This document shows positions 1 to 41,037 of a DNA stretch of 41,879 bases, piece by piece. The DNA lies in the IMG/VR virus record IMGVR_UViG_3300044470_000021, positions 1-41,879 of that record; one strand, given 5' to 3'. The notes under the pieces were generated by a model. It ran no database searches. It saw only the letters and a list, made by a program, of their open reading frames with translations, and was not told the origin of the DNA. Each line of letters begins with the position of its first letter. Position 1 is the first letter of the stretch. This DNA comes from a virus. Made by a program: the position numbers and the translations under genes.

Positions 1-546
1 CCCCATCCGCACCCAACGCGAACCGTCCTCGAATAGCACGGCCCACACCTGATATTCGTAGAGTTCGGTAAAGACGCGCATTGTGACGATCTTTTTCTTC
101 TCACCGTTGGCATCCCTGAGGTTGGCAACCCTGAGGTTGGCAACCCTGAGGTCGGCACCCCTGAGGTCGGCACCCCTGAGGTCGGCATCCCTGAGGTTGG
201 CAACCCTGAGGTTGGCACCCCTGAGGTTGGCACCGCTCAGGTTGGCACCGCTCAGGTCGGCACCGCTCAGGTCGGCACCGCGCAGGTCGGCACCGCTCAG
301 GTAGGCATCGCTCAGGTCGGCACCGCTCAGGTTGGCACCGCTCAGGTTGGCACCGCTCAGGTCGGCACCGCGCAGGTCGGCACCGCTCAGGTAGGCACCG
401 CTCAGGTAGGCATCGCGCAGGTTGGCACCGCTCAGGTTGGCACCGCGCAGGTCGGCACCGCGCTTTACAGCAGCTATTATTGCCTCTTTGATCGTTTGCG
501 ATTCGTGCGTAAATAGCACGACTCCGGCTAGATTCTTGATGTCCAT
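1..546 (-). CDS. Pentapeptide-repeat protein, 3' end cut by window edge
   Basis: The frame starts at ATG 546 and stays open for 182 codons to base 1 without a stop, so the C-terminus is missing. About 30 N-terminal residues precede 23 tandem pentapeptides of the A(D/N/Y)LxG type. After the repeats comes a non-repetitive tail rich in Lys then aromatics ([20 protein letters not shown]). Pentapeptide repeats fold into a right-handed quadrilateral beta-helix; some members (Qnr, MfpA) mimic DNA and act on gyrase. Whether this one does is not shown. It is the last visible gene of a leftward operon of small proteins. The 15-bp repeat is a multiple of three, so copy-number change keeps the frame. Confidence 0.85.
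112..456. repeat. 15-bp tandem repeat encoding pentapeptides
   Basis: Twenty-three in-phase 15-bp units (plus-strand consensus GTYGGCACCGCTCAG) with few substitutions. Blocks ending CTCAG/CGCAG and blocks ending CTGAG are clustered, which suggests local duplication. The array lies wholly inside the minus-strand pentapeptide-repeat gene. It is not a CRISPR because there are no spacers. Confidence 0.9.
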
Positions 547-3017: not shown

Positions 3018-3527
3018 ATGGCAAAGGCTGGCAGACCGAGCAGCTACACTCCCGATAGAGCAGAGGTTGTGCTTCAGAGGATGTATACGGGCGAGAGCAT
3101 ACGCTCTATCTGTCGCTCACCGGGGATGCCTGAGTATGAAACTATCTCAACATGGCGTATTCGCAATCCTGATTTCGCCACACAGTACGCGCACGCGAGA
3201 CGGGCGCAAGTTGAGGCAAGGATTGAGGATGCAACTGAGATGTTGCTTGAAACGCCTATGTGCAGCGTGCCTGATCCTGACGGCGGGGTGAGTGAGCGCG
3301 TAGACGGGGCGGCTGTGCAACTACTACGTACTCGCGTTGACCTCGCCAAGTGGGAGGCAAGCAAGCTGCTGCGCGGGTTTGCTAAAGCGGATACTCCATT
3401 GGATTACGGTGACAAGGTACAGCAGGAGATCAGCGGGCCGGACGGTGGGCCTATCCCCGTAACAGTGGCGGCGGTGGATTTGACGGATGACCAGCTGGCT
3501 AGCCTGATTGCAGAGCGCAAGGCGTGA
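3018..3527 (+). CDS. terS: Terminase small subunit
   Basis: 169 aa. It opens with a small-terminase signature: AGRPSSYTPD, then a helix-turn-helix-like segment (SIRSICRSPGMPEYETISTW), then RIRNPDFATQYAHARRAQVE and a long helical middle that would form the oligomerisation core. Small terminases recognise the packaging site on viral DNA and load the large subunit. The adjoining RHH-like gene and large terminase support the call. There is no Shine-Dalgarno; TATAAT ends 6 nt before the ATG, so translation is probably leaderless. Confidence 0.85.
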   Translation: MAKAGRPSSYTPDRAEVVLQRMYTGESIRSICRSPGMPEYETISTWRIRNPDFATQYAHARRAQVEARIEDATEMLLETPMCSVPDPDGGVSERVDGAAVQLLRTRVDLAKWEASKLLRGFAKADTPLDYGDKVQQEISGPDGGPIPVTVAAVDLTDDQLASLIAERKA

Positions 3528-3533
3528 TACACT
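3528..3533 (+). promoter_or_regulatory. Extended -10 before RHH-like gene
   Basis: TGA-TACACT (3525-3533) is followed by 6 nt (GTATTC) and ATG 3540. The element overlaps the terminase small-subunit stop codon. No clear -35 and no Shine-Dalgarno. Confidence 0.45.
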
Positions 3534-3539
3534 GTATTC

Positions 3540-3842
3540 ATGCGTGATACATCGCTCATTTCCATGCGAATCCCAAACGTCCTGCTTGCGGAGATAAATG
3601 CCCAAGCCAAGGCGGAGGATCGCAGCCGGTCTAAAGTGATCTTCATGCGCCTATCGGGGAATAGTTCAAACGCCCTAACCCAGAGCCGAGAGGACAGACG
3701 GGTTGAAAGAACGGCGGCTGCGGAGCCGTTGATGCGAGCGCGGTCACAGTCTGACGCGGGAGACTCGCAACCCCGACCAAAACCATACTATATCCCTACA
3801 CGGTTTCGCCAAGGCAAGTGCAAGCCGGGTGAGAAGGTGTGA
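3540..3842 (+). CDS. Ribbon-helix-helix-like protein, 100 aa
   Basis: The N-terminus (ISMRIPNVLLAEINAQAKAE, then SRSKVIF) has the strand-helix-helix pattern of CopG/Arc-type DNA-binding domains. The remaining ~55 residues are basic, Pro/Ser-rich and probably disordered. The last codons overlap the GTG start of the large terminase by 4 nt. It could be an autoregulator of the packaging operon or a terminase accessory. The DNA-binding call comes from pattern, not a search. Confidence 0.6.
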   Translation: MRDTSLISMRIPNVLLAEINAQAKAEDRSRSKVIFMRLSGNSSNALTQSREDRRVERTAAAEPLMRARSQSDAGDSQPRPKPYYIPTRFRQGKCKPGEKV

Positions 3843-5287
3843 TTACTCCATCCGAGGCCGCATCTGAGCTTCTAGCGCGGCGCAAGGCTCGCCGGTCGAT
3901 AGGCGAGTACATCTCCTACACCTTCCCGTCCTACCGGCACAGCGCGTATTCGGAGGCTGTCTGTGCCGCGCTCGACCAGTTTGTTGACGATGTGCAAGCG
4001 GGCAAGCGGCCCATTCTCGTATTGCAGGCACCTCCACAAAGTGGAAAATCGGAGATCGTATCGCGCAAGCTCCCCGCCTATTTACTCTCTCGATTCCCCC
4101 AGTGGCGCATCGGTGCGGCCAGCTATGCCGACTCGCTTGCTAACACAATGGCGCAAAGCGTTCGCATCAATCTGGCCTCTCCTGAGCATCAAAGACTCTT
4201 CCCAGTGTCGATAGAGAAGCGCAAGTTTGCTCTCGACCGCATGGGGGAGTTTACGGCACCCGGCGGATCGGGAAGCTATGTCGGAGTTGGTGTCGGCGCG
4301 GGACTCACTGGCAGGCCGGTAGACATCGGCATCATTGACGATCCGACGAAGGGCGAATCAGAAGCCCTCAGCGAGACAGTAAAAGAGTCACAATGGAACT
4401 GGTATCAGGCTGTATTCACCACGCGTCTCAGTCAGAACTCCGGGCAGATCATCATGGCAACTTCCTGGGCGATGGACGACTTGCCGGGGCGCATTCTGGA
4501 GATGTACGCAGGCAATCCACGCTTGACGCATCTGCGCTTCCCGGCCATCAACCTGCCGGATGAGGTTGGCTACAATCCAGACCTTCCAGCGGGTGCACTA
4601 TGCCCGGAACTGCACAGCATCGAAAAGCTGCGCGAGACGAAGGGGCTGCTCTCCGATTACTGGTGGTCGTGTTTGTACCAACAAAGCCCTCGTGCGCTGG
4701 GCGGCAACGTATTCAAAGAATCGGGGCTGCAATACTACCTACCCAAAGACTTGCCTCAGAAGTGGGACAAGGTTGTTACGTCGTGGGATTGCACGTTCAA
4801 GGATACGGATGGCACGGACTTTGTTGCAGGCGAGGTGTGGGGGCGGGCGGGCGCAAACGCTTACCTGCTCGACCAGGTACATGATCGTCTTAGTTTCAGC
4901 GCAACGGTAAAGGCGGTTGTGGCGTTGCATCAGAAGTGGCCACAGTCGCGCGAAATCCTGATTGAGGATAAGGCAAACGGCCCAGCGGTGATTGATGTTC
5001 TGAAAGCTCACGTTCCGGGTATCATTCCGATAGAGCCGGACGGGTCGAAGCTAGCTCGCGCTCATGCGGTGACAAGCTACTGGGAAGCCCTCAACGTGTT
5101 TCTGCCCCATGAGGCGATTGCTCCGTGGATTCGTGCCTACGTTGCCGAGGTGACGGCATTCCCGGCGGCAGCGCATGATGACTGGGTGGACAGCATGACG
5201 CAAGCCCTCCGCAGACTCTATCCGCTGTGGGGCAGGTTGAAAATCAATCAGGCGGCCCTCAACGCTGCGATGGGAGTTGTACAATAA
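3839..5287 (+). CDS. terL: Terminase large subunit
   Basis: 482 aa, starting at GTG 3839, which overlaps the previous stop by 4 nt and follows GAGAAG. Walker A is QAPPQSGKSE (residues 63-72), with a Walker B-like hydrophobic strand ending IIDD near 166-169. The C-terminal RNase H-fold nuclease shows D317 (SWDCTF), E376/D377 (LIEDKANGP) and D447/D448...D451 (HDDWVDSM). It pumps and cuts DNA into the prohead through the portal encoded next door. Length and motif order are complete. Confidence 0.95.
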   Translation: MITPSEAASELLARRKARRSIGEYISYTFPSYRHSAYSEAVCAALDQFVDDVQAGKRPILVLQAPPQSGKSEIVSRKLPAYLLSRFPQWRIGAASYADSLANTMAQSVRINLASPEHQRLFPVSIEKRKFALDRMGEFTAPGGSGSYVGVGVGAGLTGRPVDIGIIDDPTKGESEALSETVKESQWNWYQAVFTTRLSQNSGQIIMATSWAMDDLPGRILEMYAGNPRLTHLRFPAINLPDEVGYNPDLPAGALCPELHSIEKLRETKGLLSDYWWSCLYQQSPRALGGNVFKESGLQYYLPKDLPQKWDKVVTSWDCTFKDTDGTDFVAGEVWGRAGANAYLLDQVHDRLSFSATVKAVVALHQKWPQSREILIEDKANGPAVIDVLKAHVPGIIPIEPDGSKLARAHAVTSYWEALNVFLPHEAIAPWIRAYVAEVTAFPAAAHDDWVDSMTQALRRLYPLWGRLKINQAALNAAMGVVQ

Positions 5288-5292
5288 CTCGT

Positions 5293-6792
5293 ATGTGGCC
5301 ATTTCCCAAGCCCGTTACGCCTGCCCCCGCCGTTGAGAAGCGTCGCTCTCAGTTGTCCCATGCTCTCACACTGGCCCGCGAAGGCTCGAACGTACCAACC
5401 CATCACTTCCCGGTGCAGCCGCCCGTGTTGCCCCCCGGAGTCGTGCCTACAGGCCACACAGCGGGCGTAGCGATGGACTCCGCCATTCCGGGTATGCGGA
5501 ACACCTGGGCATACATGATGAACGGGATGCGCGATGCTGTTGGGTTTCCCGGCTATCAGTACCTCGCTATGCTTGCCACGCGGTCTGAGTTTCAGAAGAT
5601 GGTATCGAGGCTTTCAATCGAGCTGACCCGCGAATGGATCGAGCTGAATAGCTCCGAGACGGCGGGCGATGAGACGAAAGAGAAGATTACCGAACTGACT
5701 CAGGAGTTGAAGACACTTGGGCTGCAAAAGGTAATCCAAACCGCGGCGGAGCATGACGGGTACTTTGGGCGCGGGCAAATCTTCATCGACCTCAAGGGAC
5801 ACGACAATCAAACGCCGCTGGTTCTGGACTCGCGCACCATCGGTATGGACTCGTTTCGCGGCGTCAAGACGGTCGAAGCGATGTGGACAACTCCGGTCGC
5901 ATGGAACGCGCTGAATCCCGTTGCCCCAGACTTCTACAAACCGTCGCAGTGGTGGATGCTGGGGCAACAGGTACACGCCAGCCGGTTGATGACGATTATC
6001 ACGCGGCCATTGCCGGACATGCTCAAGCCCGCATTCAACTTTTCAGGGATGAGCCTGACCCAACTTGCGGAGCCGTATGTGGACAACTGGATTCGTACAC
6101 GACGGAGCGTTTCTGACCTCATCTCGAACTTCAGCGTTACGGCCCTGGCGACCAGCATGGATGAAGTATTGACCGGCGGGGATGATGGAACAGACCTATT
6201 CAAGCGGGCCGAACTCTTCACACTCACGCGCAACAATCGCGGGTTGATGCTGCTCGATAAAGACCGCGAAGAGCTTGTCCAGGTCAACACGCCACTGAGT
6301 GGGCTATCAGAGTTGCAGTCGCAGGCGGAAGAACACATGGGACTGCCTTCGGGGATGCCGATGATCGTTCTGACTGGCATCTCACCAACGGGATTGAACG
6401 CCTCAAGCGAGGGCGAGATTCGCGTGTGGTACGACCTGATTGCTGCGATGCAAGAGTCGAACTGGCGCGTCCCGATTGAAACCGTGCTGAAGGTGATGCA
6501 GCTTTCGATGTACGGCAAGATTGACCCTGACATCACGTTCGCATTCAAGCCGCTCTTCCAGTTGACAGCCAAAGAAGAGGCGGACGTGCTGACATCGAAG
6601 AGCACATCGGCCTGCAACTACATCGACCGGGGCGTACTGTCGCCAGCGGAAGAGCGGGAGCGGCTGGCGCGTGACACTGATTCGGGATATGAAGGGCTGG
6701 ACTTGTCAGTGGAGCCGCAGTTGCCGGAGCCGGATGAGCCGGACGAAACCAAGGGGCTGACCGATGGCAATAATTCCAAAGCCAAGAAGTAA
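5293..6792 (+). CDS. Portal protein (DUF1073 / Phage_portal_3)
   Basis: 499 aa from ATG 5293. A longer frame reaches 5227 but would overlap the terminase. The diagnostic DUF1073 block is present near residues 345-390: GLPSGMPMIVLTGISPTG followed by LNASSEGEIRVWYD. The portal ring is the DNA entry and exit vertex and the head-tail joint. There is no Shine-Dalgarno at usable distance; TACAAT lies 7 nt before the ATG, so this may be another leaderless start. The last ~10 codons overlap the next gene by 29 bp. Confidence 0.9.
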   Translation: MWPFPKPVTPAPAVEKRRSQLSHALTLAREGSNVPTHHFPVQPPVLPPGVVPTGHTAGVAMDSAIPGMRNTWAYMMNGMRDAVGFPGYQYLAMLATRSEFQKMVSRLSIELTREWIELNSSETAGDETKEKITELTQELKTLGLQKVIQTAAEHDGYFGRGQIFIDLKGHDNQTPLVLDSRTIGMDSFRGVKTVEAMWTTPVAWNALNPVAPDFYKPSQWWMLGQQVHASRLMTIITRPLPDMLKPAFNFSGMSLTQLAEPYVDNWIRTRRSVSDLISNFSVTALATSMDEVLTGGDDGTDLFKRAELFTLTRNNRGLMLLDKDREELVQVNTPLSGLSELQSQAEEHMGLPSGMPMIVLTGISPTGLNASSEGEIRVWYDLIAAMQESNWRVPIETVLKVMQLSMYGKIDPDITFAFKPLFQLTAKEEADVLTSKSTSACNYIDRGVLSPAEERERLARDTDSGYEGLDLSVEPQLPEPDEPDETKGLTDGNNSKAKK

Positions 6793-7567
6793 GGTCGCTC
6801 GCGCCATACACGCTAACGAAGGATTGTCTGCGCGGTATCGTGCGCGGATGCTCATGCTGATTGATGAGATGGCCAACAGCGTGGAGTATTGGCTCAAGGC
6901 GAACTATCGCGCCGCGCCCCCTTTGCTTGCTCAGGATGCAAGCCCGTACCGTGAGGCGCAAAGAACATTCCGCGAACTGGTCAAACGATGGCTCAAGCGA
7001 TTCGATGAAGCCGCCCCCACGGTTGCCGAGACGTACCTCAAGAATGCGTTTAGAGGATCTGACACAGCAATGCGTATGGCGTTGAAGGATGCCGGGTGGA
7101 CGGTGAAATTCACCATGACACCGGCGATGCGCGATGCGTTCGACGCTTGCCTTGCTGAGAACGTGGGGCTAATCAAGTCGATACCCCAGCAGTATTTGTT
7201 GCAGGTCGAGGGAATCGTAAGCCGGTCGTACACGGCGGGGCGTGACTTGCCGGGGATGGTGAAGGCGTTGCAGGCGTTGTATCCGCATACCGCAAACCGG
7301 GCGTACTTAATCGCAAGGGATCAGAGCAATAAAGCCACATCCGCGGTATCGCGCACCCGCAAACTTGAACTGGGGATTGTGGAAGCGATTTGGCTCCACT
7401 CCCACGGCGGAAAGAAACCACGTCCCACTCACGTTGCTATGAACGGCAAGCGATACAACATTGCGCAGGGGATGTGGGACAGCGCGGTGGGGAGATTCAT
7501 TTGGCCAGGTGAGGAAATCGAGTGCAGGTGCAGTGACCGCCCGATCCTTCCGCACATGACGGCTTAG
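6764..7567 (+). CDS. Phage head morphogenesis protein (SPP1 gp7 / Mu F-like)
   Basis: 267 aa. The C-terminal half has the family signature: ARDQSNKATSAVSRTR, then EAIWLHSHGGKKPRPTHVAMNGK, ending in the Cys-containing EIECRCSDRPILP. Family members are minor head proteins that accompany the portal into the procapsid. Translation overlaps the end of the portal gene. The stop overlaps the stop of the convergent minus-strand moron gene by 4 bp. Confidence 0.88.
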   Translation: MAIIPKPRSKVARAIHANEGLSARYRARMLMLIDEMANSVEYWLKANYRAAPPLLAQDASPYREAQRTFRELVKRWLKRFDEAAPTVAETYLKNAFRGSDTAMRMALKDAGWTVKFTMTPAMRDAFDACLAENVGLIKSIPQQYLLQVEGIVSRSYTAGRDLPGMVKALQALYPHTANRAYLIARDQSNKATSAVSRTRKLELGIVEAIWLHSHGGKKPRPTHVAMNGKRYNIAQGMWDSAVGRFIWPGEEIECRCSDRPILPHMTA

Positions 7568-7812
7568 ATTGTTTCTTCCCAATCAATAGTAAGGTATTCC
7601 CCGTCGCTCGTTTTGCAGTGCGGATCGACGGGCTTGTCCACTATCGACACGCTGACAGCCCTGATAGTTCGTATCAGTTGCGCGTGGCGTTTCTCTTGAG
7701 CGATACATGCGTTGCACTTCGACCCCCATCCGAGATTGAATGGCTTGCCACATTCTGAACACTGCCAAAGTATCTCGCGTCCGCTACCATCGCGCTCTAG
7801 GACTATCGTCAT
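7564..7812 (-). CDS. Zinc-ribbon micro-protein of moron operon, 82 aa
   Basis: ATG 7812 follows GGGGGAG (5 nt spacing) and overlaps the previous stop (ATGA). The product has one clear zinc ribbon, CSECGKPFNLGWGSKCNAC near residues 18-36, followed by a basic segment and an acidic C-terminus. It is third and last gene of a minus-strand operon set inside the rightward head genes. No family name recognised; likely a regulator or host-takeover protein. Confidence 0.75.
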   Translation of the reverse strand: MTIVLERDGSGREILWQCSECGKPFNLGWGSKCNACIAQEKRHAQLIRTIRAVSVSIVDKPVDPHCKTSDGEYLTIDWEETI

Positions 7813-7964
7813 TTCGCTCCCCCTTTGCACTGCGGTTTGTGCGCCCTGAAAGCGCGTGTGCCTACGATTGTCCGCTTGCACTTCGGGCAGAGATGCGGCA
7901 CGGGAGCGCGGGGCGGCTTGGTCTGTGATGCGCGGAGGATGCGGGCGGCGACGGAAGCGTTCAT
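7809..7964 (-). CDS. C2HC zinc-finger micro-protein, 51 aa
   Basis: ATG 7964 overlaps the upstream stop (TAATG), and the stop overlaps the downstream ATG (ATGA), so the gene is locked in by coupling on both sides. The product is very basic with one compact finger: HLCPKCKRTIVGTRAFRAHK then PQC (C-x2-C-x12-H-x3-C). This spacing resembles nucleic-acid-binding C2HC fingers. Confidence 0.75.
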   Translation of the reverse strand: MNASVAARILRASQTKPPRAPVPHLCPKCKRTIVGTRAFRAHKPQCKGGAK

Positions 7965-8059
7965 TAGAGATTCGTCTCCGGCCAGAGAGCAGCGATCATT
8001 TCGATTGTGCCTGCGAGGACGAAAGCGATTGCGGATGGTGCGATGAGGATGTAAAGCAT
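7964..8059 (-). CDS. 31-aa single-span membrane peptide, moron operon leader gene
   Basis: ATG 8059 has an excellent AGGAGG seven bases upstream and sits 24 nt from a predicted transcription start. The peptide is nearly all one transmembrane helix (MLYILIAPSAIAFVLAGTIE), with a short polar end finishing in NL. A paralogue of equal length (40662-40757) also heads a minus-strand operon; both share a PS motif, EM followed by a hydrophobic residue, and the terminal NL. Function unknown; such peptides can modulate membrane enzymes or exclude other phages. Confidence 0.7.
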   Translation of the reverse strand: MLYILIAPSAIAFVLAGTIEMIAALWPETNL

Positions 8060-8089
8060 GTGTGCCTCCTGATACTCAGTTCAATTTCC

Positions 8090-8133
8090 AGTATACGCAC
8101 ATTTCGCAAAGTGTCAACACAATTCGTAATGTG
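8090..8133 (-). promoter_or_regulatory. Moron promoter with two tandem operators
   Basis: Minus strand: TTGACA (8117-8112), 16-bp spacer, TATACT (8095-8090). Two 16-bp imperfect palindromes, CACATTTCGCAAAGTG (8098-8113) and CACAATTCGTAATGTG (8118-8133), match at 12 of 16 positions and start 20 bp apart, two helical turns. One covers the spacer and one lies just upstream of the -35, as in repressor-controlled promoters. Confidence 0.75.
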
Positions 8134-8157
8134 ATGAATCAGCTAGGTTTGCAGTGC

Positions 8158-8172: not shown

Positions 8173-9588
8173 ATGCCGATCATGGAATGCACATTGCCGG
8201 AGGGCGGTAAGGGTTTCAAGTGGGGCGATCATGGCCACTGCTATCCTGACCGTGCCGATGCCGAGAAGCAAGCTGCGGCGGCCCATGCCAACGGATACGC
8301 TGGGGACATTGCTTTAGACGCATCGGCCCGCACAATAGACGCGGACGGGCGAATGCACATCTCCAAGACGCATATCAGCAAAGCGTCTGTGAATCCGTAC
8401 TATGGCCGCGAGATTCCCGGTGCCGATGCGCTGGGGCTTGACCCCGATAAAATATACAATCTCTTCCGCGAACCCGGCGAACTCAAGAAGGCCGCGCCCA
8501 CATTTGAGCGCAATCAGATTCTCTCCAAACACGTCCCCGTGACGACTTACGACACGATGGATGAGCAGGAAAAGAAGAAGCTAATTGTCGGGGCCATCGG
8601 CTCGGACGTGGAGTTCAACGATCCGTACCTTGACGCCGACGTTGCAATCTGGGACTCGAAAGCTATTGCGGGGATCGAGACGGAAACTGTGATGGAGTTC
8701 TCCTGTTCGTACCACTATGTCCCGGTGATGACACCCGGCGATTACAAGGGAGAACACTATGATGGTATAATGACTCAGATTGTTGGCAACCATCTCGCTG
8801 TGGTAGAATCTGGGCGAGCAGGATCAGACGTAGCAGCAGCAGACAGTAATCCATTCACGAGGGTTGACATGACCAAGATGACCAAGTTGGGCAAGGCACT
8901 TTTCGTAACACTGGGCGCGGCTTCATCGAAGCTGGCGCAGGATTCCGCGTTGCCTGGTCTGGTAGGGCAGGCGGTCAAGAAGACTTTTGACAAGGCAGCG
9001 GTGGGCGCGAAGCTGCTTGCGATGGACGCCGAACTGAAGAAGGAAAAGGTGGACGCCGTGATGGACGCCATTCTCGATAACGACCCGGAGCCGAAGGAAA
9101 AGGCCGCGAAGGATGCGGACGAAACCGAGGAAGAGAAGAAGGCCCGCGAGAAGAAGGAAGCCGCCGCCGAAGACGAAGAGGAAGACGACGACGAAGAGGA
9201 CGAGCGCAAGAAGAAGGAAGCCAAGGACAAGAAGGCGAAAGACAAAGCCGCCAAGGACAAGGCTGCGAAGGACAGCGAAGAGGAAGTCGCCAAGAAGATC
9301 AAGCCCGCGATGGACTCGTTCAAGGCTGAACTCCGCGACGCTGCCGAAGCCGCTCGCATCGTTCGCCCGGTTGTGGGAGACGTTCTCGCTCAGGACTCCG
9401 CCGAAGAGATTTACGGCTTTGCGCTCGACCATCTGAAGGTTGACCACAAGGGCGTCACCGGCGTTCCGGCTCTCAAGGCTCTCTTCTCGCTCGCGTCTGA
9501 GAAGACTAAGCCGATTGCCACTCTCGCCCAGGATTCCGCCGGACTCAAGGCGAAGTTCCCCAATGCATCACGATTCAGCCACGCCTAA
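8173..9588 (+). CDS. DUF2213 prohead protease/scaffold-like protein
   Basis: 471 aa from ATG 8173; longer frames reach 8134 and 8062 but cross the moron promoter. The start agrees with the conserved opening ECTLPEGGKGFKWGDHGHCY. Next comes the DUF2213 core (HISKASVNPYYGREIPG, APTFERNQ), then EFSCSYHYVP and IVGNHLAVVESGRAGSD, where GRAG resembles the end of prohead-protease domains. The C-terminal half is a highly charged Lys/Glu/Asp-rich, probably coiled-coil segment typical of scaffolds. An in-frame ATG at 8869 with GAGGG 5 nt upstream could give the scaffold part alone. Confidence 0.85.
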   Translation: MPIMECTLPEGGKGFKWGDHGHCYPDRADAEKQAAAAHANGYAGDIALDASARTIDADGRMHISKTHISKASVNPYYGREIPGADALGLDPDKIYNLFREPGELKKAAPTFERNQILSKHVPVTTYDTMDEQEKKKLIVGAIGSDVEFNDPYLDADVAIWDSKAIAGIETETVMEFSCSYHYVPVMTPGDYKGEHYDGIMTQIVGNHLAVVESGRAGSDVAAADSNPFTRVDMTKMTKLGKALFVTLGAASSKLAQDSALPGLVGQAVKKTFDKAAVGAKLLAMDAELKKEKVDAVMDAILDNDPEPKEKAAKDADETEEEKKAREKKEAAAEDEEEDDDEEDERKKKEAKDKKAKDKAAKDKAAKDSEEEVAKKIKPAMDSFKAELRDAAEAARIVRPVVGDVLAQDSAEEIYGFALDHLKVDHKGVTGVPALKALFSLASEKTKPIATLAQDSAGLKAKFPNASRFSHA

Positions 9589-9603: not shown

Positions 9604-10758
9604 ATGCCCTTTCAATCAGTAGTCAATCTCACACCCGCTCCTGCCGTTGCCGGTGATTTCGCGTCGGCGAATCCTCGCGCATCGGTTCTTGCTGGCCCCG
9701 GTGGTTTGGTGGCTGGGCCTGCTGGCGTCACCGTTGGCAAGTTCGCATGGGTTGGGGCCGATGGTCGCACTGTTACCAACTACGGCGCGGCTGGCGTTGC
9801 ACCTTCGGGATTCGTACACCGCGAGCAGCAGGGACTCATCGTGCAGTACCTGGCCGAGTCCTCCATGCTCATCCCGGCGGGCTTCCCCGTCGTACTACAC
9901 CAGGAGGGAGACTTCTTCGCCAAGAACGGTGGCACAACGGCCTCCACGATGAACGAAGCCATCTATGCACTGTACGCCGATGGTTCCGCGCTCATGGGCA
10001 TTGGCTCTCTGCCAGCAGTTCCTTCGGCCATTACCGCCGCGCTCGGCTCAACCAACACCGGCGCACTCGGCTCGACCTCCACAGGCAGCGCACACACCGG
10101 CGATGCCAGCCGAATCGACATCACCTCCGTCACCGGACTTATCAGCATCGGCGACACGGTAAGCGGCACTGGAATCATCCCTGGAACCACTGTCGTCTCG
10201 CAGGATACCGGTGGCGTGACCGGCGGCGCAGGCACCTACGTTCTGAGCGCGAACAACACGACCAGCACAGCGACCGTGACCAGCTTTGGCAACGTGGTCA
10301 AGATCACGGCTTCGACGGGCCTCGTCTCGGTCGGCGATTCCATTGCTACGGCTGCGGGCGGATTCCCGGCCAATGCTACCGTGACTGGCGTTGTCAGTGG
10401 CGGCGGCGTGGCCACGGCGGGCGTCTACACAATCAGCGTTCGCGGCACAAGCTATGTGGCGAGCGCAACCGGCATGACCACCTTCGGGAGCGTCTTGAAC
10501 GTGACCGCCGTTACCGGAACGCTTGTCCCCGGAATGCCCATCACGGCAACAGGCGGAATCCCGGCTGGCACAAGCATCGCAAGTTTCATCAGCGGGACGA
10601 ATGGCGGGGTCGGACTGTATGGCCTCAACATTCCGGGCACCGCTTATACCCCCTCTGGCACCATCGTTATCACCGCTGGGGGAATCATCACGAACTTCAC
10701 AGCCCAGTCCGTTGCCGCTGTTGGCGAACTGGTAAAAATCTCGACATGGGGAGCGTAA
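9604..10758 (+). CDS. Gp24-like structural cement (decoration) protein with added repeats
   Basis: 384 aa. Residues 1-145 match the Gp24-like cement signature: DFASANPRASVLAGPGGLVA, VGKFAWV, GFVHREQQGLI and IPAGFPVVLHQEGDFF. Cement proteins clamp capsomers from outside. Residues ~150-370 are extra: three Gly/Thr/Val-rich repeats built around VTG...G..V.GTGI..GT.I and a GTY/GVY strand. These are Ig-like surface decorations of the same style as those in the sheath gene. It sits directly before the major capsid gene. Confidence 0.85.
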   Translation: MPFQSVVNLTPAPAVAGDFASANPRASVLAGPGGLVAGPAGVTVGKFAWVGADGRTVTNYGAAGVAPSGFVHREQQGLIVQYLAESSMLIPAGFPVVLHQEGDFFAKNGGTTASTMNEAIYALYADGSALMGIGSLPAVPSAITAALGSTNTGALGSTSTGSAHTGDASRIDITSVTGLISIGDTVSGTGIIPGTTVVSQDTGGVTGGAGTYVLSANNTTSTATVTSFGNVVKITASTGLVSVGDSIATAAGGFPANATVTGVVSGGGVATAGVYTISVRGTSYVASATGMTTFGSVLNVTAVTGTLVPGMPITATGGIPAGTSIASFISGTNGGVGLYGLNIPGTAYTPSGTIVITAGGIITNFTAQSVAAVGELVKISTWGA

Positions 10759-11920: not shown

Positions 11921-12244
11921 ATGGCAGAGAGCATCATCATTGCGAGCAGGTTGCCGCACGGCCTCACGCTGCATCACCCGACCAGCAAGGCTACGGTCAC
12001 GCTGTTGGGGTTGAATAGCTCCAAGATCATCGGCGCAACACACATGACCACGGAGGTCGAAAAGTCATTCTGGGAGGCCTGGAAGGCGAAGTATCCCGAT
12101 TACCAGCCGCTCAAGTCCGGCGCGATCTTCGAGTCCAGCAGCACAAACAATGCGGCGGCGAAGGCGCGGGAATTGAAGGATGAGAAGACCGGCCTCGAAC
12201 CGATGCCGCGGACAGCCGCCGGAGTCAAGCCCGCAACGGAGTAG
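11921..12244 (+). CDS. Conserved small head protein, 107 aa
   Basis: ATG 11921 follows AAGGGGAGACAC. The pattern MAESIIIASRLPHGLTLHHP... followed by VTLLGLNSSKIIGATHM... and a SFWEAWKAKYPDY block is one I recall as a short conserved protein between the DUF2184 capsid and DUF4054 connector in related phages. N-terminal beta-strands lead into a charged, probably flexible C-terminus. The exact role, perhaps capsid or connector assembly, is not known. Confidence 0.75.
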   Translation: MAESIIIASRLPHGLTLHHPTSKATVTLLGLNSSKIIGATHMTTEVEKSFWEAWKAKYPDYQPLKSGAIFESSSTNNAAAKARELKDEKTGLEPMPRTAAGVKPATE

Positions 12245-12246
12245 CT

Positions 12247-12663
12247 ATGGCGGTCGCTGTCTTCAATTCGGCTCTCTTTCTCGCACGTTACCCGGAGTTT
12301 CTACCCGTCAATGCCTCCAAGCCTTTGCGCCTGGGGGCATTGTTCTTGGAAGCGGGCCTGTATCTGTCCAACTGTGATGATTCTCCCGTACAGGACATTG
12401 CGCGGCGCGGCGTGTTGCTCAACATGATTACCGCACATATTTCTTTCCTGGCGGGCGATCTGAGCGCGGATGGGCAGGCGAGGCCGGTAGGACGTGTTAG
12501 CCAAGCGGGAGAGGGCACCGTATCGGCGAGCTTTGAGGGTGTGCCGCCCACGCCGGGCACGGGAGCATGGTTCCAACAGTCCCAGTATGGCGCGGCCTTC
12601 TGGCAGGCTACAACTTCACTACGCGGTATGAGGTACGTTCCATGCCTGCTGACAAACTACTAA
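12247..12663 (+). CDS. Head-tail connector (DUF4054-like)
   Basis: 138 aa. It opens with the family pattern FNSALFLARYPEFLPV and has a helical middle ending in LLNMITAHISFLAG. Then comes the characteristic loop GRVSQAGEGTVSASFEG and a C-terminal region with FWQATTSLRGM. DUF4054 proteins are adaptor/connector subunits that dock on the portal. Gene order supports it. Confidence 0.85.
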   Translation: MAVAVFNSALFLARYPEFLPVNASKPLRLGALFLEAGLYLSNCDDSPVQDIARRGVLLNMITAHISFLAGDLSADGQARPVGRVSQAGEGTVSASFEGVPPTPGTGAWFQQSQYGAAFWQATTSLRGMRYVPCLLTNY

Positions 12664-12815
12664 TCCGGCTGGGGATGTACACGTCGGAACTGCGAGACGA
12701 TCTTGAGCGCATCAACAATGGCGAATTGCGTTTGCCGACAGTCTCAGCAATCAAACTGGCGATGGATGACGATGGAATTGAGGAAGTGCTAGTCTACCTT
12801 TGTGGGGAGCAATAA
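12642..12815 (+). CDS. Small hypothetical protein, 57 aa
   Basis: ATG 12642 lies 22 bp inside the end of the connector gene with GAGG 8 nt upstream. The stop overlaps the next ATG (TAATG), so translation is coupled on both sides. The product MPADKLLIRLGMYTSELRDD... is an acidic, mainly helical protein with a Cys near the end. No family recognised; a minor head-completion or regulatory role is possible. Confidence 0.65.
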   Translation: MPADKLLIRLGMYTSELRDDLERINNGELRLPTVSAIKLAMDDDGIEEVLVYLCGEQ

Positions 12816-13330
12816 TGGAACTGGCACTCTCAGAACGTGTCACCGCAAAGCTCAAGGCAATAGCGAGCAAGATAGGCAGCGGGCATGTTGACGTTGGGTT
12901 TCTTGAGGGGCAGGAAGCGTCTATCGCATTCTGGAATGAGTTTGGGCATGGGGGACGCTTCCCCGCGCCGCCGCGCCCATTCTTTCGCACGATGGTTGCG
13001 AAGGAATCCCCGACATGGCCTGCAAAGATGGCAGCCGAGGCGAAGGCGACAAACTACGATGGACCTAAAGTTCTTGGCATGATGGGCGAAGACATTGCGG
13101 GCGCGATCACGCAGAGCATCTTCGATCTAACTGCCCCGCCGTTGTCGCCCACTACGCTCATGCTTCGCAAGCAGTTTGGCAACAGTCCGCAGAACATCCG
13201 GGCGCGTGATGTGGTTGCCGCGCAGCGAGCCGTGGCAGCGGGTGAGACGGGCGCAACGGGAACGCAGGGCAAGCCGCTGGTCTGGACTGGCACAATGGCG
13301 CGGTCGCCTGCGTATAAAGTGGAGTCATAA
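12815..13330 (+). CDS. gp10-like head-tail/tail-completion protein
   Basis: 171 aa. ATG 12815 overlaps the upstream stop and follows GGGGAG. The signature VDVGFLEGQEASIAFWNEFG then PAPPRPFFRTM is typical of the HK97 gp10 / virion-morphogenesis group that completes the neck or tail. The C-terminal half (ITQSIFDLTAPPLSPTTLML, then PLVWTGTM) fits the same group. Confidence 0.8.
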   Translation: MELALSERVTAKLKAIASKIGSGHVDVGFLEGQEASIAFWNEFGHGGRFPAPPRPFFRTMVAKESPTWPAKMAAEAKATNYDGPKVLGMMGEDIAGAITQSIFDLTAPPLSPTTLMLRKQFGNSPQNIRARDVVAAQRAVAAGETGATGTQGKPLVWTGTMARSPAYKVES

Positions 13331-13332
13331 TC

Positions 13333-13713
13333 ATGGACTTGCAGACCATAGCGAACGCGGCAGCGAACACGATCAATGAAAACGTGATTGTAACCATTCT
13401 GCGCTCTACGGGATTCACGATGGGCGCGGGGCTGAAACAGGTGCCAACCTACGCCGCGCCGGTGACTGGCCCCGCACAGATACAGGCGTTGGACTACTCC
13501 GACTTGCGGCAAGTTGAGGGATTGAATCTACAGGGACGCATCCAAGCGATCTATCTGCGCGGCATACTGCAAGGCGTTCTCCGCGCTGAGGGTGTTGGTG
13601 GCGATCTGATACAGTTCGGCGGGCAGACATATTTGGTGGTCAAGATTTTAGAGTCATGGGCAACGTGGACAAAGGCGGCGATTGTGTTGCAGGGGGCGTC
13701 TTCCAATGGCTAA
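13333..13713 (+). CDS. Neck/head-completion protein, 126 aa
   Basis: ATG 13333 follows GGAG. The protein is mostly beta-strand in pattern: VIVTILRSTGFTMGAGLKQV, then GPAQIQALDYSDLRQVEG, then a strand-rich C-terminus QTYLVVKILESWATWTKAAI. The position between the gp10-like and neck-terminator genes matches a head-closure or neck protein in related contractile phages. No specific family is firmly recognised. Confidence 0.7.
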   Translation: MDLQTIANAAANTINENVIVTILRSTGFTMGAGLKQVPTYAAPVTGPAQIQALDYSDLRQVEGLNLQGRIQAIYLRGILQGVLRAEGVGGDLIQFGGQTYLVVKILESWATWTKAAIVLQGASSNG

Positions 13714-14206
13714 CTACCAGCCCTCGATTGCCATTGACGACGTTATCACCGCCCTGGGCACATTCCTACAGCCGTTCGTGGGCAGCGCAGACATTATCCG
13801 CGCAGAGGTCAATCGCGTAGCTCCCCCAGCGGGGCCGTTCGTCGAGCTTACTGAGTTGATGACCGTCGATTTGGAAACGCCGCAGACTTTGAATAATGCA
13901 GACCAGACAACCTCCATCAAAGGCCCAGCGCGTATCGACGTGCAGGTAGATTTCTACGGCCCCGCGTCCGGCGATTGGTGCAGGGCAGTCAAGGGCGTTT
14001 TCCGCACTCCCTACGCCGCCGCACAGTTCCCGTGCAACATCAAACCGCTCTACTGCTCGGACGGGACGCAAGCCCCTTTGATGACGGGTGAGGAGCAATA
14101 CGAGGTTCGCTGGGTACTCACGGCGAGCCTCCAATACAATGCTGTTATAATAGTGCCACAGCAGTCCGCCGATGCTTTGGCGATGAATATAGTGGAGGAT
14201 TTATGA
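13706..14206 (+). CDS. Neck/tail terminator protein (LIC_12616 / gp12-like)
   Basis: 166 aa. ATG 13706 follows AGGGGG, overlaps the previous gene by 8 bp, and its stop overlaps the sheath ATG. Two blocks fit the neck-terminator family: PARIDVQVDFYGP near residues 73-85 and the C-terminal PLYCSDGTQAPLMTGEEQYE then VRWVLTASLQYN. Such proteins cap the tail tube/sheath and join it to the neck. Confidence 0.8.
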   Translation: MANYQPSIAIDDVITALGTFLQPFVGSADIIRAEVNRVAPPAGPFVELTELMTVDLETPQTLNNADQTTSIKGPARIDVQVDFYGPASGDWCRAVKGVFRTPYAAAQFPCNIKPLYCSDGTQAPLMTGEEQYEVRWVLTASLQYNAVIIVPQQSADALAMNIVEDL

Positions 14207-16212
14207 GCATACCTGCATCCGACATCGTTGGAGCAATTCCAAGCGTTCTCAGCGCGGGGGGCAGCGATGCTCTACTCAGCGGGCTTTTCCTGACGAAGAA
14301 TCCTCTCATGCCCGCATTGCAGGTGTTGAGTTTCCCCAGTACGGATGCGGTAATTGCTTTCTTCGGTCTTGCATCGGATGAGGCTGCGCTCGCCCCGACG
14401 TATTTCAATGGGTATGACAATTCGACCGTCAAGCCCAGCGCAATGCTGTTTGCTCCGTTCAATCTGACGGCCCGCGCCGCGTTCCTGCAATCCGGCAATT
14501 TGTCCGCACTCACGGAGGCGGAGTGGCAGGCGATGGCTGGGTCACTGAGTATCGTGGTTGACGGCTACACGCGCACGGCCCTGGGAATGAACTTCTCTGC
14601 GCTGTCTTCGCAATCGGCAGTGGCCACCGCGATCGCTACGGGGCTTAATGGATTTCTGACGGAAACCGGCGCGGCTGCGACATGCTCGATTGCAGCCAAG
14701 ATTCTGACCGTCGCCAGTACAGTGACCGGCGCATTCGTTCCGGGGCAGACTTTGGCCGGGGCAAGCGTCACCGCCGGATCGGTCATTGTCGCACAGTTGA
14801 CCAGCACGGAAACCGACTCGCATCTTGGCGGCATGGGAACGTATCAGCTTTCCGTCGCATCGACTGTGACGACACCCGAAGCGATGACCTCAAGCGCGGA
14901 TATTGGCTCGGCTGCGGATGGCTCAATCTCCACCACCACACTGACAATCGCCAGCGCAGTGACGGGATACTTTGCGCCGGGGCAGTTGGTCACATGCGCC
15001 GGTATCACGTCCAACTCGGTCATCCTTTCACAGTTGACGAGTACCGAAACGGACGGGCACATGGGCGGCATGGGAACGTATCAGCTTTCCCAGTCTTCCA
15101 CCGTTGCAGGCCCGGTCGCAACCTATTCGACTGGCGTTCCCGTCACCGTCGCGTGGGACAGCGTACAGACCGCCTTCGTCATCACGTCCGGCCTTACCGG
15201 GGTGCTGTCGAGCATGGGATACGCAACCGGGGCTGTGGCCGAAGACTTGAGCCTGAGTGCGGCAACCGCAGCGTATGTTTCCGCCGGGGATGCCGTCGAT
15301 ACGCCCGCAACTGCGATGGACAAGGCTGTAGCGGTCACGCAGAACTTCTGTGGCTTTACTACGCTGTGGGAACCCGATCTGGCAGACAAGCTCAACTTCA
15401 CCATTTGGAGCAACGGGCAGCTTTACAATCCGTACCTCTACACCGGATGGGACACGGACTCTCAGGCTATCATGCAGAACGTCACGGAGCCATTCGGGTG
15501 CGTCAGCAAGGCCGCAAAGTACAACGGCGTCATTGCAATCTCTGGCGATCCGAATGCGGCCTATGCTGCTGGCATAACGCTTTCTTCGATGCTTCTCAGT
15601 CAGGCTGCATTCTTGCTGGGCGCGATTGCTTCTGTGAACTTCGCGCAACCCAAGGGGCGCATCACGTTCATGTTTAAGTCGCAGTCTGGACTTCCGGTGG
15701 GCGTGACCAACTTGCAGATCAAAATCAATCTGGTCGCAAACGGGTACAACTTCTACGGGCAGTGGGCGAGCAAGGCGAATCGGTGGTCATTCTTCGCGCC
15801 CGGACAAATCCCCGGACAGAATCGTTGGCTTGATCCGTTCGTCAATCAAATCTGGATGGCCGATCAATTCCAGGTTGCCGACATGAATCTTCTGACGGCG
15901 GTTGGAATCATCCCTTACGATGAGGGCGGATACGGGTTGCTCCGCGCCGTGAAGCTCGACACGATCAACGCGGCTCTGAACTTTGGCGCAATCGTTCCGG
16001 GCGTTGCACTATCGGCGGCGGAGATTGCAGAGGTCAACATTGCCGCTGGTCAGAACGTGGCCTCGATCATCGCAACGTCGGGATGGTATCTGCAAATCCT
16101 CGATCCGGGTGCAACAATTCGCGCCGCTCGCGGAACTCCGATTCAGAATTTCTTTTTTACAGATGGAGGCGGAATCCAGAAGCTAATACTCAATTCTATA
16201 GATATGATGTAG
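14203..16212 (+). CDS. Tail sheath protein (DUF3383) with internal surface repeats
   Basis: 669 aa after GGAGG. The N-terminal and C-terminal thirds carry DUF3383 features: FLTKNPLMPALQVLSFPSTD, then ADKLNFTIWSNGQLYNPYLY, GRITFMFKSQSGLP and KANRWSFFAPGQIPGQ. The C-terminus has LQILDPGATIRAARGTP. It forms the contractile sheath. Residues ~165-310 (about 14698-15120) are an insertion of two near-identical repeats, each TVTG...PGQ...AG.....S.I..QLTSTETD.H.GGMGTYQLS. This makes the protein longer than ordinary family members of roughly 500 aa. Confidence 0.88.
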   Translation: MSIPASDIVGAIPSVLSAGGSDALLSGLFLTKNPLMPALQVLSFPSTDAVIAFFGLASDEAALAPTYFNGYDNSTVKPSAMLFAPFNLTARAAFLQSGNLSALTEAEWQAMAGSLSIVVDGYTRTALGMNFSALSSQSAVATAIATGLNGFLTETGAAATCSIAAKILTVASTVTGAFVPGQTLAGASVTAGSVIVAQLTSTETDSHLGGMGTYQLSVASTVTTPEAMTSSADIGSAADGSISTTTLTIASAVTGYFAPGQLVTCAGITSNSVILSQLTSTETDGHMGGMGTYQLSQSSTVAGPVATYSTGVPVTVAWDSVQTAFVITSGLTGVLSSMGYATGAVAEDLSLSAATAAYVSAGDAVDTPATAMDKAVAVTQNFCGFTTLWEPDLADKLNFTIWSNGQLYNPYLYTGWDTDSQAIMQNVTEPFGCVSKAAKYNGVIAISGDPNAAYAAGITLSSMLLSQAAFLLGAIASVNFAQPKGRITFMFKSQSGLPVGVTNLQIKINLVANGYNFYGQWASKANRWSFFAPGQIPGQNRWLDPFVNQIWMADQFQVADMNLLTAVGIIPYDEGGYGLLRAVKLDTINAALNFGAIVPGVALSAAEIAEVNIAAGQNVASIIATSGWYLQILDPGATIRAARGTPIQNFFFTDGGGIQKLILNSIDMM

Positions 16213-32746: not shown

Positions 32747-33099
32747 TACTGTTTGGGCACCGGGACGTACACGCCGTCAACCCAGTGATACCGTTTGCTG
32801 CCCTTCTCTGAATTGCATTGTCGGCACAAGGCGGCATTCTGCCAGTGCCCGTCAACCTCGATACGATCATCCCTATGCCCACCGCCTGATCCTCTACCGG
32901 CCTCATGGTCAAATTCTGCCCAGATGGGATGCAGGTTTTCGTGGCACACGGCACAAAGAAATCTCTGGCGTTGGAGCATGAGAAACGTGCGCGTGTAATA
33001 CTCCTGCTTCCCAGCCTTCACTTTCAGTTGGCAGACCTCACGGCCACCGGGGAACACTTTGACCGCAGGCTTGTGGGCAACGAAATACTTTGGGATCAT
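32746..33099 (-). CDS. HNH endonuclease, 117 aa
   Basis: Start overlaps the upstream stop by 4 nt. Zinc ligands C49/C52 (CAVCHENL) and C92/C95 (CRQCNSEKG) frame the nuclease core FDHEAGRGSGGGHRDDRI (D64, H65) with N88. This compact HNH type is widespread in phages as a small stand-alone nuclease. Role could be DNA processing, recombination or homing. It is the last gene of the leftward early operon, next to the folded stretch. Confidence 0.85.
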   Translation of the reverse strand: MIPKYFVAHKPAVKVFPGGREVCQLKVKAGKQEYYTRTFLMLQRQRFLCAVCHENLHPIWAEFDHEAGRGSGGGHRDDRIEVDGHWQNAALCRQCNSEKGSKRYHWVDGVYVPVPKQ

Positions 33100-33617
33100 G
33101 GCAGCAGCCCCATAATGTCACGGATGGCATCGCCGCGCTCCACCATTTGAGTCGCACTGAAACGGCGTGGGATCATCCCTAAACGCAATCTATATTCCTG
33201 GTTGCGCCGCTTATGGCATATCGCGCAGACACGCATCCGTGATCCACGCGCCTTCGCATACCGAGTATTTTCAGCGTCGAAGGGATGTCCCCAAGCACAG
33301 TGCGTCAATGTCGAACCATAGGAGATCCCAATGCGTACATTCTCCCCACGCTCCAGTTCCCGCATGTGATCGGGGTTGACGCAGTTTCGTGTACGGCAAA
33401 TGTGATCTACGACCAGGTGATCCGAAATGAACCCGTTGTGCGCGAAGAATGAAAGACGGTGGACATACATCACTTTCCGGCGGAGATAGAATACCCCGTA
33501 TCCATTCGGGAGCGTCGCTCCACTCCAGAGCCAACAGGAATCAGTTTTCTCCACCTTTGCCCAAAATCGGGTTTGGTCTGAATCGGAGAGGATATAATTC
33601 TCTTGTGGGGTTGTCAT
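33096..33617 (-). CDS. HNH_3-type homing endonuclease with second zinc site
   Basis: 173 aa. ATG 33617 is set by GGAGGG seven bases upstream; the longer frame reaches 33683. The core reads FWAKVEKTDSCWLWSGATLP, YVHRLSF (H53), VVDHICRTRNCVNPDHM (D71, H72, N81, H84), the HNH_3 arrangement. A C-terminal zinc site (C107, H111, C131, C134) and basic helix probably bind DNA. It overlaps the next HNH gene, an unusual tandem of two HNH enzymes. Confidence 0.85.
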   Translation of the reverse strand: MTTPQENYILSDSDQTRFWAKVEKTDSCWLWSGATLPNGYGVFYLRRKVMYVHRLSFFAHNGFISDHLVVDHICRTRNCVNPDHMRELERGENVRIGISYGSTLTHCAWGHPFDAENTRYAKARGSRMRVCAICHKRRNQEYRLRLGMIPRRFSATQMVERGDAIRDIMGLLP

Positions 33618-33679
33618 TGATCGGCCCTCCATGGCCTTGAGATGTGAGGAGGTTCGCGCCTCCACAACCCCATTATACA

Positions 33680-34189
33680 TCACCGCAATAGCCCTAAAAT
33701 TAAATCTCTAGCCTCTCCAGATAAGACCATTCTGGTTGAGAATCTCAGAACTGCCCAGCCCTGTATTGTAGCGGCTCCGTACTTCCGGCAGTCATCCTCG
33801 AATCCATCCCCTTGCGAATGGCGGGACTTGCCGAACTTGGTACCCCCTTCGACTTCTACGGCAAGGTGACGATCCGGCCAAGCGAAATCGAACTTCCACT
33901 GACGCTTAGGGTCGAATTGGTACTCGCGCTCATAATCGGTGATTCCGTTTGCCCGGAAAGCCAGTACAAGCCCCTCTTCGCCAGGACTCTTCTTCTTGGG
34001 CATTGTTCCACGTGGAACACTCTTCTTGGGAGCCTTGCTGCGGGGCCGCTGAGGGGGTCTAGGCGCGTCGGGAGCCTTTGGATGGCCTCCTACTACCCCC
34101 GAATCGCGCTGAAGCCACTCTGCGAAGCCCAGGTGACGCAGGCCACGCGGTCTATTCAGCCATTCGTCGTGCATGTCTGGTGAGGTCAT
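33680..34189 (-). CDS. PD-(D/E)XK endonuclease (VSR/DUF559-like)
   Basis: 169 aa, ATG 34189 after GAGGTGAAGG and overlapping the previous stop. A basic, Pro-rich linker (residues ~30-70) precedes the nuclease core: KFDFAW (D101), LAVEVEGG (E112, E114), then GFEDDCRKYGAATIQGWAVL and a C-terminal strand LRFSTRMV. This layout matches small VSR/DUF559-type nucleases found in phage replication regions, possibly Holliday-junction or mismatch processing. Confidence 0.8.
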   Translation of the reverse strand: MTSPDMHDEWLNRPRGLRHLGFAEWLQRDSGVVGGHPKAPDAPRPPQRPRSKAPKKSVPRGTMPKKKSPGEEGLVLAFRANGITDYEREYQFDPKRQWKFDFAWPDRHLAVEVEGGTKFGKSRHSQGDGFEDDCRKYGAATIQGWAVLRFSTRMVLSGEARDLILGLLR

Positions 34190-40757: not shown

Positions 40758-40782
40758 GGGTAATCTCCTGTGCAACAAATAC

Positions 40783-40811
40783 AGCGTATCGGACATTCGA
40801 TACCTTGTCAA
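40783..40811 (-). promoter_or_regulatory. Right-hand leftward promoter with palindromic operator
   Basis: Minus strand: TTGACA (40811-40806), 17-bp spacer, TACGCT (40788-40783). The palindrome GTATCG-GACATT-CGATAC (40786-40803) fills the spacer. The transcript leader GTATTTGTTGCA is identical to that of the promoter at 2595-2623. Confidence 0.75.
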
Positions 40812-40819
40812 GAAAAAAG

Positions 40820-40848
40820 TTGACAAAGTTGCGAAATAGTTTTACGGT
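40820..40848 (+). promoter_or_regulatory. Repressor promoter
   Basis: TTGACA (40820-40825), 17-bp spacer, TACGGT (40843-40848), then 6 nt to ATG 40855. The -10 is weak, as in many activator-dependent maintenance promoters. Message would be leaderless or have a 0-2 nt leader. Confidence 0.5.
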
Positions 40849-40854
40849 AGGAGA

Positions 40855-41037
40855 ATGGACATCGGAGCGATGGTCACAAAACGCCGTGGGAAGCAGTCAA
40901 TGGCCGATTTTGCGCGTTCTCTTGGCGTGACTCGGCAGCGCGTATGGCAATGGGAGCACAACGATCACAAGCCCCCCGCGCTCATTCGCAGGAAACTTGG
41001 CATCCGAATACGGTACGAGATGAAGGCAGTGAAGTGA
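40855..41037 (+). CDS. Cro/CI-like XRE repressor, 60 aa
   Basis: ATG 40855; AGGAG lies only 1-2 nt upstream, too close for normal use, and a -10 ends 6 nt before it. A single helix-turn-helix fills the protein: MADFARSLGVTRQRVWQWEH, with a basic end (IRRKLGIRIRYEMKAVK). No dimerisation or cleavage domain, so it is Cro-like in size. It is divergent from the large leftward operon and sits beside a palindromic operator. Operator recognition is inferred. Confidence 0.75.
   Translation: MDIGAMVTKRRGKQSMADFARSLGVTRQRVWQWEHNDHKPPALIRRKLGIRIRYEMKAVK

Follow-up and report, generated by a model that had tools for sequence, protein, structure and literature searches.

The cassette and its surroundings

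The DNA analysed here (the window) is the IMG/VR virus record IMGVR_UViG_3300044470_000021 at its full length of 41,879 nucleotides. Its plus strand carries a myovirus-like head and packaging operon with genes for terminase, portal protein (PF06381), a Mu F-like (MuF) head morphogenesis protein, a DUF2213 head maturation protease, a minor head protein and the major capsid protein. Between the MuF gene (6764..7567, plus strand; PF04233, phrog_324 with 1e-66) and the DUF2213 gene (8176..9588, plus strand) lies a segment at 7564-8133 that is read from the minus strand and is referred to as the cassette. The probable start of the DUF2213 gene at 8176 was inferred from the related locus L003; its longest open frame begins at 8062.

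The cassette contains three small genes, all on the minus strand: tm31 (8059-7964) for a hydrophobic, probably single-pass membrane peptide of 31 amino acids (Kyte-Doolittle maximum of 2.14 in a 19-residue window), cf51 (7964-7809) for a 51-amino acid protein with a single C-X2-C-X12-H-X3-C finger (C2HC), and zr82 (7812-7564) for a RanBP2-like C4 zinc ribbon of 82 amino acids. A Shine-Dalgarno sequence AGGAGG (8065..8070, minus strand) ends 5 nt upstream of the first ATG of tm31, the stop codon of tm31 and the start codon of cf51 overlap in TAATG, those of cf51 and zr82 overlap in ATGA with GGGGGAG upstream of the zr82 start, and the convergent stop codons of zr82 and the MuF gene overlap in cTTAGa. 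The original prediction of three coupled micro-genes of 31, 51 and 82 amino acids, transcribed against the head and packaging operon, agrees with these reading frames in position and direction; the junction that it named, portal-DUF2213, has to be corrected to MuF-DUF2213, the portal gene being one gene further back. An intrinsic terminator downstream of the cassette was not predicted between 6500 and 9200, and a search of Rfam gave no match.

Three other features of the window may be mentioned. The minor head protein (9604-10758) and a 669-aa tail protein (14203-16212), by position likely the sheath, both contain repeats with the pattern GxxxSGTGIxxGTTVxSQ...GGxGTYxLS; one decoration has apparently been inserted into two virion proteins. 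At 33096-34189 (minus strand) an HNH endonuclease gene (phrog_826) adjoins that of a phrog_503 protein with a weak match to homing endonucleases. A pentapeptide-repeat gene (1-546, minus strand) runs off the left end.

The promoter and its palindromes

The cassette has a near-consensus promoter of its own, as had been proposed: TTGACA-16-TATACT at 8117-8090 (minus strand), with 11 of 12 consensus bases. The -35 hexamer TTGACA (8112..8117) and its surroundings are also conserved in three relatives described below (L083, L084 and L085), where the -10 hexamer TATACT (8090..8095) is found as TATATT or TATACT. The GC content of the promoter stretch is 41% vs. 56% for the window. An operator-like palindrome O1, CACATTTCGCAAAGTG (8098..8113), fills the 16-bp spacer between -35 and -10, and a palindrome O2, CACAATTCGTAATGTG (8118..8133), abuts the upstream edge of the -35 hexamer. 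Each is self-complementary in 6 of 8 positions and the two are identical to each other in 13 of 16. The two 16-bp palindromes of the original prediction are therefore real, a second such pair being found neither elsewhere in the window nor in 100 local shuffles, but they are not placed on either side of the promoter, since one lies within the spacer and the other upstream of -35. O2 is found in the window only and not in the promoters of the relatives. At the position of O1, the spacers of the three relative promoters contain CACATTGCGTAATGTG, which is the core of a perfect-armed ACACATT-GCGT-AATGTGT. This arrangement is, as far as can be read from the DNA, the layout of a repressor operator.

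Related cassettes in other phages

When a pattern made from the promoters of the window and of L083 was scanned over all of IMG/VR, it led to three contigs, L083, L084 and L085. A separate scan of IMG/VR with a cf51 profile led to the identical three contigs (L086 is the L084 contig), this profile having been built from the window sequence together with the homologues in these contigs. By sequence, one homologue of cf51 was found (L083, 74%); the homologues in the three contigs are 64-74% identical to cf51 over 47 amino acids. L083 comes from a related phage (capsid protein 63% identical), and its cassette promoter, TTGACACATTGCGTAATGTGTGTATATTGGGAATTGA, is identical to that of the window in 32 of 37 bp in an ungapped alignment, with the perfect-armed palindrome at the same position in the spacer. 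Among about 100 related loci no resembling promoter was found elsewhere. A looser operator pattern scanned over IMG/VR added L109 and L110, which do not have the context of promoter plus cf51 and were rejected as chance matches.

The cassettes of the three relatives are likewise antisense to their surroundings and lie at homologues of the connector genes 12800-13330 and 13333-13713 of the window, that of L083 between the two. Their cargo is different. In L084 and L085 the promoter is followed by a gene for a 68-aa Cys-rich protein, cf51 carries an N-terminally fused 72-aa domain in L083 and L084, and L084 and L085 have in common a 75-aa extension C-terminal to cf51. Searches with the 68-aa protein and the 72-aa domain found only contigs already collected. 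A terminator was not predicted after the cassettes of L083 and L085. Because tm31, zr82 and the cargo of the relatives differ between cassettes, promoter/operator and cf51 are the constant elements around which all other parts have been exchanged. Conservation of the frames in relatives with the insert thus holds for cf51 (three phages), for zr82 only in one unrelated contig, and for tm31 nowhere.

In L083 a minus-strand frame next to the cassette (4716-5221) begins GIY-YIG-like (MSGIYAIVSPSGNLYIGNAKDTEKRW) and runs into cf51 antisense, which looks as though the remainder of a homing endonuclease gene had given way to the cassette. A second GIY-YIG-like gene is located at 3059-3772 of the same contig.

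The three proteins

For none of the three proteins was there a match above cut-off in Pfam, PHROGs, NCBIfam or PADLOC, in agreement with the statement that they belong to no recognised family; the matches obtained were sub-threshold zinc-finger matches, and in PADLOC there was none up to an E of 1. The best Pfam matches of cf51 were Sgf11 (15.7 bits) and Phage_zn_bind_3 (15.3 bits), both below their cut-offs, and tblastn with cf51 yielded no match in 50,697 phage records, in 72,556 plasmid records or in the genome contigs database. The spacing of the finger is invariant in the four homologues, which also conserve an N-terminal helix and a PPxxPVxH linker. AlphaFold predicts the N-terminal helix followed by a beta-beta-alpha finger (pLDDT about 90).

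A homologue of zr82 is a 68-aa protein in L082 (57% identical over 56 amino acids), an unrelated contig in which it adjoins a DUF551 gene. Otherwise zr82 was found only in the window, with marginal matches in phage records; its structure prediction (pLDDT 62) was too poor to be used. L082, like the window, has a pentapeptide-repeat gene, in its case just upstream of the zr82 homologue. For tm31 there was no homologue in the loci fetched.

Most of the differences between homologues are in third codon positions, which supports translation. This was found for cf51 (except for the pair L083-L084), for zr82 compared with L082, and for the 68-aa gene. It should be noted that for cf51 only, the opposite strand likewise has one reading frame that is uninterrupted in each of the four sequences, and the strand call therefore also rests on the promoter, the ribosome binding sites and the coupling.

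Presence and absence of the cassette

Relatives of the window were gathered via the MuF protein, and the comparison indicates a discrete cassette, as predicted, which is missing from the close relatives L002 and L003. In L002 the stop codon of the MuF gene is joined directly to TTGCGGTGCTACAATG. L003, whose DUF2213 and major capsid proteins are 95 and 98% identical to those of the window, retains 51 bp corresponding to the final 17 codons of zr82 (88% identical) and, after them, has the right flank. This stump ends at the 10-bp sequence TTTGCAGTGC, which in the window is present as a direct repeat, with the left copy inside zr82 (7612..7621, plus strand) and the right copy at 8148..8157 (plus strand). 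Deletion between the repeats and insertion with a 10-bp target duplication give the identical outcome. Deletion is favoured, though tentatively, by the zr82-frame codons left in L003 and by the absence of the 51-bp piece from L002. The simplest series would thus be an empty site in L002, the full cassette in the window, and in L003 a deletion between short repeats.

The MuF-DUF2213 junction is a hotspot for cargo. It is tight in only 26 of the 78 loci that contain it, and several of the other junctions, including those of annotated Aeromonas phages, hold unrelated minus-strand genes; since minus-strand frames are over-called in loci of high GC content, this rests on examples that are annotated and named and not on an overall count. 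In L004 an antisense endonuclease VII-like gene (3491-4138, minus strand) is found at the MuF junction and alters the last residues of MuF. At the junction upstream of DUF2213 in L083 there are two coupled ORFs of 64 and 100 amino acids (12097-12590, plus strand), which are antisense to the head genes and have no match in PHROGs.

Interpretation of the cassette

The best explanation is a cargo cassette of the moron type, namely a small, separately transcribed and repressible operon with exchangeable effectors that has been placed backwards between head genes. We give this reading a probability of roughly 0.6. The cassette is accordingly best described as a putative mobile and regulated cargo unit that is not part of the phage shell. 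A protein would bind to the palindrome in the spacer and block RNA polymerase; the cassette would be off by default and be opened at some stage of infection. The exchangeable effectors (tm31 and zr82 in the window; the 68-aa, 72-aa and 75-aa parts in the relatives) may be directed at the host cell or at competing phages; superinfection exclusion, host control and anti-defence, the roles originally suggested, are candidate functions. Recombination at those head-gene junctions where homing-type endonuclease genes also settle is probably how the cassette spreads, and it may be lost by deletion between short repeats.

In this scheme cf51 would be the constant regulatory part, a candidate single DNA-binding finger that perhaps autoregulates its operator. 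It is a natural candidate for this role because of its strict co-occurrence with the operator-promoter in the known cassettes, of which there are only four, all on incomplete contigs. That cf51 is indeed the autoregulator of the accompanying operator is conceivable, if doubtful: shared descent alone could explain the linkage of promoter and cf51, and one zinc finger is often insufficient for specific DNA binding. Somewhat unlikely is the more far-reaching proposal of a portable cartridge, in which a 37-bp operator-promoter and a dedicated single-finger autorepressor, cf51, bring interchangeable effectors into different head-gene junctions; we know of no example among phage repressors of one made from a single C2HC zinc finger.

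The main rival explanation is that the antisense transcript itself is selected, the small ORFs being secondary. An RNA without terminator would extend across the MuF and portal genes in the antisense direction and dampen the head genes of the phage or of a superinfecting relative. Its rank among the rivals comes from the lack of a predicted terminator after the cassette, in the window as in L083 and L085, and from a precedent: STnc6030 from the Salmonella prophage BTP1, an RNA complementary to structural genes, is reported to exclude superinfecting phage (PMC7067206). Moreover, all known copies of the cassette run antisense to head genes. However, the strong Shine-Dalgarno sequence, the tight coupling and the third-position excess argue for selection of the proteins, and with the cassette at two different junctions the antisense target differs. 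We consider this explanation unlikely.

It is also quite unlikely that the immunity repressor of the phage controls the genes and that these serve host takeover or anti-defence early in the lytic cycle, being switched on at infection and shut in lysogens. Small zinc proteins are frequent among early phage genes, and the window has a region that looks like a phage immunity switch: at 40781-40858 divergent promoters, TTGACAAGGTATCGAA (left) and TTGACAAAGTTGCGAA (right), which form an 81% complementary inverted repeat, precede a 60-aa HTH gene (40855-41037). The rightward promoter PR (40820-40858) has TTGACA and TTGCGAAAT in common with the cassette promoter/operator, which is of marginal significance (p about 0.03). 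Against this, a position-weight matrix of the cassette operator found nothing above background in the immunity-like region (40781-40850 and the HTH gene at 40855), the alignment of the cassette promoter with the leftward promoter PL was not significant, and none of the three proteins has a match among defence or anti-defence families. The matrix and alignment results led to rejection of the operator as a component of the immunity circuit. A tyrosine or serine integrase was not found in the contig, and a host search with the capsid gene returned a mixture of Proteobacteria, none above 66% identity, and no host was therefore assigned.

Type II toxin-antitoxin loci have promoters that overlap operators, and the cassette, with coupled small genes, a palindrome between -35 and -10 and one hydrophobic 31-aa peptide, recalls such an addiction-like pair, in which tm31 would be toxic and cf51 or zr82 would restrain tm31 or repress the promoter. 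This is improbable, however, with tm31 conserved in no relative cassette, no match to a toxin-antitoxin family, and cargo that changes while cf51 stays. A decaying insertion of the homing-endonuclease type, with the fingers as remnants of a free-standing intergenic endonuclease, is highly improbable, for although L004 has an endonuclease VII-like gene at this junction and a GIY-YIG-like fragment (read from the translation) lies beside the cassette of L083, the three genes lack a nuclease motif, their frames are intact and the promoter is conserved in four phages.

Cargo of phages mostly goes unnoticed unless its genes resemble known ones. In the moron-type cassette proposed here the constant element is an operator-promoter switch plus a 47-aa finger, and the cargo changes around both. 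The switch can therefore be used as bait for new phage effectors that protein-family searches would miss. The cassette also poses a directly testable question, namely whether a single small finger regulates its companion promoter.

Comparison with known systems

GAGA factor is an example of a DNA-binding protein with a single finger, and cf51 is similar to classical C2H2/C2HC fingers of this type in its C-X2-C-X12-H-X3-C spacing, which falls within C-X2-4-C-X12-H-X3-5-H/C, and in the beta-beta-alpha fold predicted by AlphaFold. It differs in that no family is above cut-off and that its Foldseek neighbours, although classical C2H2 fingers, all have E-values >0.1 (best 0.72); its DNA binding is putative. 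With the RanBP2-type ribbon (PF00641) zr82 has in common W-x-C-x2-C-x4-N-x6-C-x2-C, and the Mdm4 finger (2cr8) is among its weak matches. It has, however, an extra residue in the stretch from the second Cys to the Asn, its L082 relative has Asp in place of this Asn, and its score of 17.6 bits is below the Pfam cut-off of 27 bits. A conserved toxin/antitoxin pair, as in type II systems, is not discernible, and PADLOC assigns none of the proteins to known anti-phage defence.

Uncharacterised minus-strand genes are also found at the same head-morphogenesis/protease junction in the Aeromonas phages 4_D05 (KE336_gp46-47; L106, 2628-3840) and vB_AsaM-56 (F394_gp52-55; L108, 2440-3829). These inserts differ from the cassette in that they encode unrelated, mostly larger hypothetical proteins (up to 298 aa) and do not have the operator-promoter in common with it. 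The insert of 4_D05 differs, in addition, by a strong terminator-like hairpin downstream, just before the head gene, and therefore looks like a complete moron.

Among prophage morons, accessory loci with a promoter that run antisense to lytic genes are a known pattern (PMC7067206). The cassette is like these in its own promoter (11 of 12 consensus bases and conserved in four phages, at the sequence level), its opposite orientation, its position among structural genes and its presence or absence between conserved flanks in close relatives (the window vs. L002 and L003). It is unlike them in that neither a terminator of its own nor an integrase of its phage was found; its promoter carries a conserved operator and so may be repressible rather than constitutive. 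Membership of the cassette among the morons is partial because of the missing integrase and terminator and because its expression in lysogens is putative. The rare modular cassette family is new; its kind, the moron, is already known.
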